This document shows positions 28,791-62,637 of a stretch of DNA of 64,000 nt, in pieces. Below the pieces are notes generated by a model that worked only from the letters and a program-made list of their open reading frames with translations, was not told the origin of the DNA and did not search any database. Source of the DNA: Candidatus Avelusimicrobium aviculae (lineage in GTDB: Bacteria; Elusimicrobiota; Elusimicrobia; Elusimicrobiales; Elusimicrobiaceae); NCBI GenBank assembly GCA_944324655.1, contig CALUXF010000006.1:1-64000 (forward strand). Reading direction: 5' to 3'. Position 1 is the stretch's first letter; the number at the start of each line of letters is the position of its first letter. The translations under genes were made by a program, and so were the position numbers.

Positions 28791-28826
28791 AAAAAGGCCT
28801 CAGCTTTTTACGGCTGAGGCCTTTTA
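28791..28826 (-). terminator. Terminator of the Cys-rich repeat protein gene
   Basis: AAAAGGCCTCAGC and GGCTGAGGCCTTTT form a long hairpin; the minus strand then runs into T residues. Confidence 0.9.
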
Positions 28827-28850: not shown

Positions 28851-30692
28851 TTAGTTAGCTACAGCACATTTCAAGCCACTTCTTTCAACATGACACCAGC
28901 TATCAGTACTAGCGGCTACAGGCCCACAACTGCTCCAACATGTCCTTCCTTTGCTCGAGCAACTACCACCAGAGCGGGCGCCTAACTCAGAACAAGTCAT
29001 ATCACTGCTCATAAAGATATCAGTCAAGCATTTCGAAGTACCACTAGGGATTTCAGCGCATTTTTTATTCACAACCTTCTTTTCGGAATTGGACTGCCAA
29101 ACCAATTTCTCTTCTTCCTTACAGGTATCAGAGGTCAATTCCCAAGTGCATTTATCTAAGCTGGTGTTATATTTATACGTCTTCGAACCCGTATACCCGG
29201 CAGGGCAGCTTTCTGTTCTCGTTAAGTTAGAAGGCTGGCCCGCACATCTGCAGCTACTCGTGCTTCCATAGCTCCAAGAGCAAGTATCGTGGTTGTACGT
29301 ATCCGTTATTGTTCCAGTCCATTTACTGTTCTCACTAGAGCAGTAACGCGTCTTCGTGCTGGTCCCGCTGTATTGTTTCTTTGGTGCCCCCGCACTGGAA
29401 CCGCAGTAGCAGTCTTCATCATAATACTGGTCCCAATAGCAGTTCCCTTTGCCATAATAGTAACGGGCCGTAATCGTTCCGTCATATTTGCTGCCCCATT
29501 TGCTGTCCGTAGAGCAGCTTCTCGTTTTATCCTCATAACCGCTCGTGCGCCCACTGGAAGGAGCGTCCGCTCTCGTTGTGCTGCAATAGCAGTTGGCGCT
29601 TTCATTCCATTTGCAGTTGGCAAAATCATACGTGCCGCTTATCGTCCCGTCATATTTGTTGCCGTAACCCAATATCTTGTCATACCGGCAGCTGCGGCTG
29701 CGGCTGGCACTCGCCTCGTTTACCATGTTCCCGTTTATGGCACCGCTCTTAAAACGCGGGTTACCATATTTCTGGTCAAACGTAGTCGCCGTGCTGTCAT
29801 TATAACTCCCGCTGCTGTACCCTTCGCACTGGCAATTGTGGTGGGACGGAATAGACGTCCATTTCACCCATTTCTCCCAATTGCTCGTATTCTCATACCC
29901 TTTCGGGTCCGCTTCATACCATTTGCACGTGTCATAATTAAAACGCCAAAAAATAGTGCCTACTCTGCGCTCGCTAGGGCTTTCCTGAGAAGAACACGTC
30001 TGCGTGTTCCATTCATTGGTACAATGCCGCGAACTAAACGGACTTACCGAGTTCCCGCAGCGGCATTCCCCACCACGTTTGTCCGTACGTATCGGATAAG
30101 AAGTAAATTCCGTTGTCCCGTCCTTAATAACCCCTTTGTTCTCATCCACTTTAAAATTATAACGATAATCGTCTGTGGAGCCTCTCCAGTGCACATCCGA
30201 CCCTACCAAGCTCTGCGCAGGATACACAATGTGCGTGCTCCCGCCTATCGTCATGCTCGGTATGTCCGCCGCTATAAAAGTGCTCCCCGCGTTAATATTC
30301 GTAGACGCGGCTACCGTTATATCCTGCGGATTGGCGCTGTTGGCTAATAAACGCCCTCCTAACAAACTGCCACCAGACCCTACTTCCAAACCGTCCGCTT
30401 CCGTTATCTGGTAATTCAGTTTATTAGTGGCGCTTCCCGCTCGCGCGTCAGACCCGGTAAGACGAAGCTCGTTCATCTTTACCATCCCCTGCACGTCTAT
30501 CTTACCCGTGCTCACGGATGTATTACAAAAGTTAACAAAAAGCGTCTTAGAGGCACGCTCTTCATTTAACGATTCCACCTGCGCAAACGCACCGATGGGT
30601 TGTGACAGTACCGTCACGAATTTCAACTCTTCCGCTTGTATTACTGCCACTCCAAGCGAAATCAGTGCCATACTGGTTAATATTTTTTTCAT
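28851..30692 (-). CDS. Exported Cys-rich protein with five CxC...CxW repeats
   Basis: Not a family I recognise. The 613-residue product has a signal peptide (MKKILTSMALISLGVAVIQA) and a Ser/Thr/Gly-rich, strand-rich region to about residue 205. Five diverged repeats follow. Each opens with CxC (Cys210/212, 287/289, 368/370, 428/430, 481/483), has an internal Arg-x-Cys and Gly-x-Ile step, and closes with CxW (Cys256, 360, 418, 471, 515 with Trp two residues on). Repeats shorten from about 77 to about 50 residues. A Cys-rich end domain (residues 545-613) with at least ten Cys follows. Many disulfides suggest a surface or extracellular protein, perhaps an adhesin or pilus-associated subunit. It is a single gene with its own structured leader and a strong terminator. 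Confidence 0.8.
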   Translation of the reverse strand: MKKILTSMALISLGVAVIQAEELKFVTVLSQPIGAFAQVESLNEERASKTLFVNFCNTSVSTGKIDVQGMVKMNELRLTGSDARAGSATNKLNYQITEADGLEVGSGGSLLGGRLLANSANPQDITVAASTNINAGSTFIAADIPSMTIGGSTHIVYPAQSLVGSDVHWRGSTDDYRYNFKVDENKGVIKDGTTEFTSYPIRTDKRGGECRCGNSVSPFSSRHCTNEWNTQTCSSQESPSERRVGTIFWRFNYDTCKWYEADPKGYENTSNWEKWVKWTSIPSHHNCQCEGYSSGSYNDSTATTFDQKYGNPRFKSGAINGNMVNEASASRSRSCRYDKILGYGNKYDGTISGTYDFANCKWNESANCYCSTTRADAPSSGRTSGYEDKTRSCSTDSKWGSKYDGTITARYYYGKGNCYWDQYYDEDCYCGSSAGAPKKQYSGTSTKTRYCSSENSKWTGTITDTYNHDTCSWSYGSTSSCRCAGQPSNLTRTESCPAGYTGSKTYKYNTSLDKCTWELTSDTCKEEEKLVWQSNSEKKVVNKKCAEIPSGTSKCLTDIFMSSDMTCSELGARSGGSCSSKGRTCWSSCGPVAASTDSWCHVERSGLKCAVAN

Positions 30693-30784: not shown

Positions 30785-30814
30785 ATGCTATCAAAAAAAC
30801 AAACATAATGTAAA
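30785..30814 (-). promoter_or_regulatory. Promoter of the Cys-rich protein gene
   Basis: TTTACA (30814-30809) and TAGCAT (30790-30785) are 18 bases apart on the minus strand. The predicted start at about 30778 coincides with the beginning of the foldable leader. Confidence 0.45.
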
Positions 30815-59314: not shown

Positions 59315-59815
59315 TTAATTTTGATACCAAACGCCGTTCTCATATTTCCAGCCCAAAGATTGGCAAACTTTACGCCCCATATCTTCATTGCAGGAATGAT
59401 CCGTACCTTTTGCCACATAACACCAGGAACGCCCTTCGTCTGTACCGCCAGAATGGTCCAACTTGATTTCATAATTATTACACAAATATTTATAATTATA
59501 CGCCGCTACACGGTTATTTTGATGTAATAGAACAAAAGAATTTCCGTTATCTTCATAAATAATCCAGCCCCCATCGCCCGTGTAACCGGACGGCATTTCT
59601 ATATCCAGCTCATCAAAACGGGTGGCATATTTGCCATTAGCCAAGTAATAAACTTCCTGAGCGTTTTTAATGCTTCGTGCCATTGTCACTAACTCGGAAT
59701 AACGCGCCTTGGCCACAGCCACTTGATATTGCGGCAAAGCAAGACTGGCTAAAATACCTATTATTAAAACGACAACCAATAGCTCTATAAGCGTAAATCC
59801 AGCATTTTTTATCAT
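59315..59815 (-). CDS. Type IV pilin-like protein (pseudopilin)
   Basis: A 166-residue prepilin. The leader MIKNAG precedes FTLIELLVVVLIIGILASL, the type III signal cut by PilD before Phe with Glu5. The next part (VAKARYSELVTMARSIKNAQ) is the N-terminal pilin helix. The C-terminus is Cys-rich (WCYVAKGTDHSCNEDMGRK, VCQSLGWKYENG), a pattern common in Elusimicrobiota pilin-like proteins. No other pilus genes are in the window. Whether it is a major pilin or pseudopilin cannot be told. Confidence 0.88.
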   Translation of the reverse strand: MIKNAGFTLIELLVVVLIIGILASLALPQYQVAVAKARYSELVTMARSIKNAQEVYYLANGKYATRFDELDIEMPSGYTGDGGWIIYEDNGNSFVLLHQNNRVAAYNYKYLCNNYEIKLDHSGGTDEGRSWCYVAKGTDHSCNEDMGRKVCQSLGWKYENGVWYQN

Positions 59816-60038
59816 AAACAGTATCCCTCCATATTCCTAAAGGCAAAACTCACTATATCAAAAAAAAAAAACAAAACAAGCCCTATATATAAACGGATGA
59901 AAAAAACAGATATAAATAAAGAGTAAACAGCCTTGTGGAGTATTCTTAATTAACAAATATTTACTGTTTTGAGGCCTTGATAAAAGCTGAAAGTATTAAA
60001 ACGGTTTCATTGCCAAAGTATTTGGCTTTTTCCAACAA

Positions 60039-62157: not shown

Positions 62158-62637
62158 CTAAAAACCGTCTGTATCCGCGTAATTCCGCCCGGCCACCACA
62201 CGGCAGAGCTCCTGCCCCTTTGCGGTATTGGGTACACAGTTACGCACAAAAGTGCCGTCACTGCGGCGTTTTCTACCCACAATGGAATAATCTTTATCGG
62301 GGTTATTACGCTCAAACTGTACACCATAATAAAAATTCGCGTCCCCAGGCAATCTGGTTACATTATAACTTTCCGTTCTAATTAACTCCGACGTGGCGCC
62401 AGAAATATTGGCTTCCAAATTGGTGAAAGTGCATTTGGCGTCAAATTGGTTTTGATAGGTGGAATAACAAATGGCCATAGAATCTTTTAACACGCCCATC
62501 AGCTGCAAAGCTTCGGCCGAACGGGCTTTTTCCACCGCTCTTAAATACTGAGGAACCCCTACTGAGGTCAAAATCCCGATAATAAGCACCACTACCAACA
62601 ATTCAATTAAAGTAAAACCCTGGTTGTTTAAACGCAT
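62158..62637 (-). CDS. Type IV pilin-like protein, second
   Basis: A 159-residue prepilin with leader MRLNNQG, then FTLIELLVVVLIIGILTSVG and VPQYLRAVEKARSAEALQLM. The Glu5 of the mature form and the hydrophobic helix are complete. The C-terminal half has Cys in CYSTYQNQFDAKC and NCVPNTAKGQELC. It resembles the gene at 59315-59815 only in the N-terminal third. GGAGG lies before the ATG. The genes flank feoB. Confidence 0.88.
   Translation of the reverse strand: MRLNNQGFTLIELLVVVLIIGILTSVGVPQYLRAVEKARSAEALQLMGVLKDSMAICYSTYQNQFDAKCTFTNLEANISGATSELIRTESYNVTRLPGDANFYYGVQFERNNPDKDYSIVGRKRRSDGTFVRNCVPNTAKGQELCRVVAGRNYADTDGF

Follow-up and report, generated by a model that had tools for sequence, protein, structure and literature searches.

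A genus-restricted family of secreted four-cysteine repeat proteins with variable, apparently exchanged C-terminal tails in gut Elusimicrobiales

The window analysed here comprises the first 64,000 nucleotides (nt) of contig CALUXF010000006.1 of Candidatus Avelusimicrobium aviculae (GenBank assembly GCA_944324655.1), whose genome spans 1.62 Mb in 53 contigs. On the minus strand it carries a gene (28851..30692) for a secreted protein of 613 amino acids (aa), composed of a constant N-terminal domain, five four-cysteine units and a variable tail. Sequence comparison places this gene, at a site we call locus A, in a genus-restricted family of gut Elusimicrobiales (family 1) that occupies several loci. 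The exchange of tails between loci and species is well supported by the alignments described below. All genomes compared were metagenome-assembled genomes (MAGs).

The open reading frame (ORF; 30692 to 28851, minus strand) starts with a signal peptide (residues 1-20, ...AVIQA/EEL; 30633..30692), in agreement with the export proposed by a sequence-only reading of the region. This peptide is kept in a 26-row alignment and has neither a lipobox nor a prepilin motif. It is followed by the constant N-domain (residues 21-206; 30075..30632), which has homologs in most congeners, and by units R1 (C212-C287, with one extra Cys; 29832..30059), R2 (C289-C368; 29589..29828), R3 (C370-C428; 29409..29585), R4 (C430-C481; 29250..29405) and R5 (C483-C524; 29121..29246). 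R3 is entirely missing from two horse-gut paralogs, and R5 is the final stretch common to the paralogs before the tail. The tail itself (28854..29120) has 89 aa and was classified as type I (W...C...C...GxxC...C...C); at 8 Cys, or 9 if C524 is counted, it falls short of the ten or more previously attributed to the C-terminal domain. Similarly, the N-terminal third turned out not to be rich in Ser, Thr and Gly, which make up 28.5% of the N-domain versus 32% of the whole protein. Upstream of the gene lies a promoter-like TTTACA-N18-TAGCAT, with T7 inside the spacer (30785..30814), a short-tract form of the poly-T promoter class discussed below. One terminator hairpin (28792..28825) is found 3′ of the stop codon, and the locus does not have the 83-bp two-hairpin 3′ element of its sister loci. 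All these features are on the minus strand.

The repeats occur in a fixed order five times, as had been described: CxC at residues 210, 287, 368, 428 and 481 strictly alternates with CxW at 256, 360, 418, 471 and 515. The Arg-x-Cys reported for the middle of each repeat is present in the other units, whereas the fifth has ESC. With strict gaps, the pattern C.C...[RE].C...C.W detected four units and missed R1, in which the gap is one residue short. Not even two ordered units of this kind appeared in any of 20,000 composition-preserving shuffles of residues 208-540. The unit is better delimited as the stretch that starts with the second Cys of a CxC and closes with the first Cys of the following CxC, which makes it a four-Cys module; R2-R5 each contain exactly four Cys under this delimitation. 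It measures about 42-80 aa with the consensus C..(P)...T.T..C...YTGTIT..YN...C.W..TS..C (in short, C...xC...G[TS]I...Y...CxW...C), and three columns are invariant across 16 aligned units. The unit was found in 14 of 295 genomes sampled from the phylum, all in the genus of the window, and the single-copy relatives carry one unit. In a giant relative (G025:C107; L185:2914-7767), the ORF extends over at least 1617 aa, of which 199 are Cys, and includes at least two units.

The proposal that these repeats form no named Cys-rich family held up, as the full protein had no match above the cut-offs in Pfam, NCBIfam, PHROGs and PDB. Profiles of the repeat and of the family likewise gave nothing above the cut-offs in Pfam and PDB, and searches of phage, plasmid and IMG/VR sequences returned no relatives. 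AlphaFold2 modelled R4-R5 as small beta-meanders with a mean predicted local distance difference test score (pLDDT) of 84, and a three-strand pattern recurs in the model. This prediction supports the earlier interpretation of the repeats as small beta units, presumably tied by disulfides; a Foldseek search of the R4-R5 model found no fold relative in PDB. The full-length model, built from 6 alignment rows, was poor (mean pLDDT 42.7), is unreliable outside R3-R5 and gives no meaningful fold search. Its pLDDT is about 20-35 over the N-domain, in which the invariant columns of the 26-row alignment include F25, T27, L29, S30, P32, G34, F36, N54, F55 and W169. One or two of the 26 members gave weak profile matches to Bactofilin, DUF2807 and LiaG, which suggests that the N-domain is probably a beta-helix. 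The likeness to these beta-helix families consists of weak matches of single members, and the window family, which is exported with a signal peptide, is not assigned to them.

Matches to the family (P0001) were present in 28 of 61 genomes, its own included, and every one belonged to the same genus. G061 and G122, and probably also G062 and G169, appear to be the same assemblies and were counted once. A typical congener has a single copy, with a conserved N-domain and a different C-terminal part. The genome of the window (G000) has three loci: A in the window, B in the contig pair C40/C43 and C in the pair C5/C4. The near-identity of the constant parts at loci B and C has left both divided between contig ends; the pairing is backed by synteny, since the flanks are adjacent in relatives. 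Within one genome, the first 300 nt of the copies are 98.7% (G005) or 99.7% (the horse-gut genome) identical, compared with 80.7-84.3% between species. Gene conversion or recent duplication would keep the constant parts alike within a genome. Locus C is occupied in G000 alone and a further locus, D, in G005 alone; relatives show a bare intergenic region there, which is too diverged around the empty sites for a target-site duplication to be read. In G035 (C1; L049, about 105550), a second copy of the family-1 gene is interrupted by an in-frame TAA close to the start and is likely a decayed duplicate.

The 5′ part and the repeats of the window gene recur in its paralogs at other loci, whose tails are different. 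The same was observed at locus A itself. Between the window and a close relative (L058), the neighbouring AsmA gene is 97.6% identical and the family-1 gene 84.5%, while the tail and terminator of L058 are unrelated to those of the window. The genomes EQ and G005 also have their own tail and terminator at this locus. A second carrier family (N-domain AAQTKNTMKMV...) has the same plan of a constant part and exchanged tails. Its tail III is located at a MATE locus in G000 and B32 and at an acyltransferase locus in EQ and G005. Between B32 and EQ/G005, this tail is 97.8-98.2% identical at the nt level, whereas the constant part of the gene is 74.8-75.7% and the flanking genes are 80.7-90.5% identical. 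Divergence of whole genes is insufficient to explain a tail at about 98% beside a constant part at about 75%, which argues that the tail moved as a module. The sequence-only reading was supported, yet it had missed the multi-locus nature of the family and the exchanged tails.

Related tails are also present on type IV prepilins. G000 encodes three large Cys-rich prepilins (C5:62737, L088; C12:45443, L087; C1:48347, L090) of 506-517 aa with 36-49 Cys and an N-methyl motif. The constant parts of C5 and C12 are 94.4% identical at the nt level, and the tails of the three are mutually unrelated. All three are weakly similar to ComP, just under its cut-off. The C1 tail is homologous to the family-1 tail at locus A of G005 (60% over 53 aa, E=5.6e-19), the C12 tail to that of the secreted family-1 protein L010 (E=6e-13) and the C5 tail to that of the secreted family-1 protein of C43 (E=5e-8); the lowest E in 100 shuffled controls was 8e-4. 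Three tail types thus occur on secreted as well as prepilin carriers. It had been suggested to look for similar repeats beside pilin-like genes, and what was found is related tails fused to prepilins within the same genome. Since the 1.6-Mb G000 has 36 prepilin-like genes, apparently many for its size, we gave little weight to pilin-gene adjacency as evidence of function; the shared tails are a firmer link between the secreted carriers and type IV pili. The window itself contains a prepilin gene at 59735-59870 with a poly-T-spacer promoter upstream and another at 62560-62628, both on the minus strand.

In each family, the tail sits between the conserved carrier and a conserved 3′ element of its own. 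At loci B, C and D, an 83-bp element lies within about 5-65 bp of the stop codon of family-1 genes. It is 99-100% identical in three species and folds as a hairpin plus terminator (z -7.0); an Rfam search of it gave only a sub-threshold match to the Thr leader. Family-2 tails are followed by a 68-bp two-hairpin element (94-100% identical, z -5.6), and the two prepilins of 516-517 aa have in common a third two-hairpin element, of 58 bp (91% identical).

Many secreted-family and prepilin genes share the promoter form TTGACT-T(11-13)-GATACAGT. In 770 kb of sequence, overlapping loci included, we counted 23 distinct A/T runs of at least 11. The majority of these were in a single setting, (C)TTGAC-TTG-T11..13-GATACAGTGG or a close variant of it, which precedes prepilin genes and the genes of families 1-3. 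The genome of the window contains T11GATA 10 times and 13 times when up to one mismatch is allowed, compared with 3 for the reversed pattern; the 13 include a family-3 gene and the window gene. Tract lengths of T11-T13 differ across loci and species, and three contig ends in G000 carry the family-2-type promoter with T12, T12 and T11. Contig C40 (L156) stops within a run of 24 T at the promoter of locus B, where other copies have T12. In families 1 and 2 the -35 half of the promoter is also one arm of a conserved inverted repeat of 10-17 bp (GTCAAG...CTTGAC), the arms of which co-vary between species (L037:7680-7735, L056, L059, L158, L218-L220). Homopolymers placed between -35 and -10 are classic targets of slippage switching. 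Slippage in the tract of 11-13 T may therefore switch the expression of these genes, i.e. cause phase variation.

The reading we favour, and consider fairly likely, is that these proteins are surface adhesin-type tips on secreted or pilus-borne stalks that are diversified by homologous-recombination exchange and are possibly phase-variable. The carrier would be secreted and displayed on the surface: its constant N-domain would be beta-helical, its stalk would be built from four-Cys beta units tied by disulfides, and a Cys-rich tip would form the C-terminus. Family 1 would form a small dispersed set, three loci in G000, next to two more carrier families of the same plan. Tips would be swapped between loci, between species and, over longer times, between carrier families, presumably by a RecA-type route. 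The exchanged block would start in the conserved repeat region and end at the 3′ element or past it (at locus A, in the downstream flank), so that the tip is changed while the carrier is kept. Of this picture, the sequences themselves show the architecture, the homogeneity of copies within a genome, the replacement of tails, the common tail types and the shared promoter form; display on the surface, ligand binding by the tip, the RecA-type route and phase variation are inferred. A wider version is tentative and, in our estimate, somewhat short of an even chance: a genus-wide combinatorial display, in which type IV prepilins and signal-peptide-secreted beta-helix carriers recombine a shared pool of Cys-rich tips, framed by conserved carrier sequence and conserved stem-loop 3′ elements, all controlled by a single class of poly-T-spacer promoters through which the set may phase-vary.

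Several points weigh against this interpretation. The binding activity of the tips is putative, and tail homology across carriers is visible at the protein level only. The data are MAGs of different species rather than isolates of one strain, and the T11-T13 variation was seen across loci and species; the 24-T run of C40 may represent mixed tract lengths or an assembly artefact. Silent donor cassettes were not found, as the ORFs ahead of the 3′ elements are either complete or cut by the end of a contig. Moreover, the window copy is without a conserved 3′ element, so this element is not obligatory for tail replacement.

Ordinary paralogs might instead have diverged under diversifying selection without active module exchange, the 3′ elements being mere conserved terminators. 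The two-hairpin elements do end in good intrinsic terminators and some tails are remote homologs of one another, but tail III at 98% between species at different loci, and the complete replacement of the locus A tail and terminator despite a 97.6% identical neighbour, make this explanation unlikely. The layout of a constant N-part with exchanged C-terminal modules, and tails on several carrier types, would also suit a polymorphic toxin-like carrier, whose swapped tail would be an effector that reaches neighbouring bacteria, comparable to the tip exchange of Rhs or CdiA. However, a terminator or two-hairpin element lies within tens of bases of the stop codon, no small immunity-like gene follows the tail, the four family-1 tails searched had no Pfam match, and the presence of disulfide-rich tails on prepilins is more consistent with display than with delivery; we regard a toxin as distinctly improbable.

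Site-specific recombination by a shufflon or invertase, or a diversity-generating retroelement, as the source of the variable tails seems highly improbable, even though the constant N-part and variable C-part resemble PilV shufflons. The retroelement was rejected, as the genome has no reverse transcriptase and the tails change as whole modules rather than in an adenine-directed manner. A shufflon was rejected as well: the variants are at dispersed loci, with no inverted cassette array and no recombinase there. The five tyrosine-recombinase matches in the genome (two full-length of XerC/D size, one partial and one broken gene counted twice) are all elsewhere.

Exchange of tips on surface carriers, the reading we prefer, has parallels in known systems. 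The Opa genes of Neisseria are few and dispersed; each is complete and can be switched individually, they recombine among themselves, and they encode outer-membrane barrels switched by coding-repeat slippage. The present genes are also dispersed, complete and apparently recombining, but encode soluble Cys-repeat proteins with a promoter T-tract. Poly-A homopolymers in or near the promoter are found in the vlp genes of Mycoplasma hyorhinis. The surface-protein gene nspA has such a poly-A tract in or near its promoter (PMC6389960). The tract here lies between -35 and -10; in contrast to nspA and vlp, it is poly-T and is common to prepilin and tip-protein genes. With Neisseria pilE/pilS the families share a constant N-part and a variable Cys-bearing C-part. 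In Neisseria, pilin variation is enhanced by the 66-bp Sma/Cla repeat, which lies just 3′ of the stop codon of pilE and is lacking at some loci (PMC4023411). The conserved elements of the sister loci and sister families recall this repeat, and the window locus is without one. Unlike pilE/pilS, however, no silent partial cassettes were found, there are several carrier families, and full-length genes occupy several loci, in most cases with a promoter that can be recognised. The window gene is not a prepilin, having a signal peptide and no N-methyl motif, whereas the related big prepilins have the motif. The 3′ element sequences are unrelated to the Sma/Cla repeat, and the likeness is one of analogy, not homology. 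The PilV shufflon of R64/IncI plasmids is likewise linked to type IV pili and combines a constant N-part with exchangeable C-terminal tips, but works by the Rci invertase on one cassette array (PMC5430464, PMC9045228), whereas the loci here are dispersed and have no such recombinase.

Our literature search, whose coverage was incomplete, did not turn up any description of this system in Elusimicrobia, which is weak evidence of novelty. Recombinational tip exchange is best known from pathogens and plasmids. Here it would operate in a little-studied phylum of gut commensals, on two unrelated carrier types with common tip classes, and sharing of this kind would turn the tips into transferable modules for binding. 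The interpretation also accounts for short-read assemblies of these genomes breaking at the same genes. It yields an explanation, open to testing, for possible variation in the attachment, phage receptors or immune targets of gut Elusimicrobia, and suggests that what the bacterium binds or presents at its surface is probably being reshuffled.
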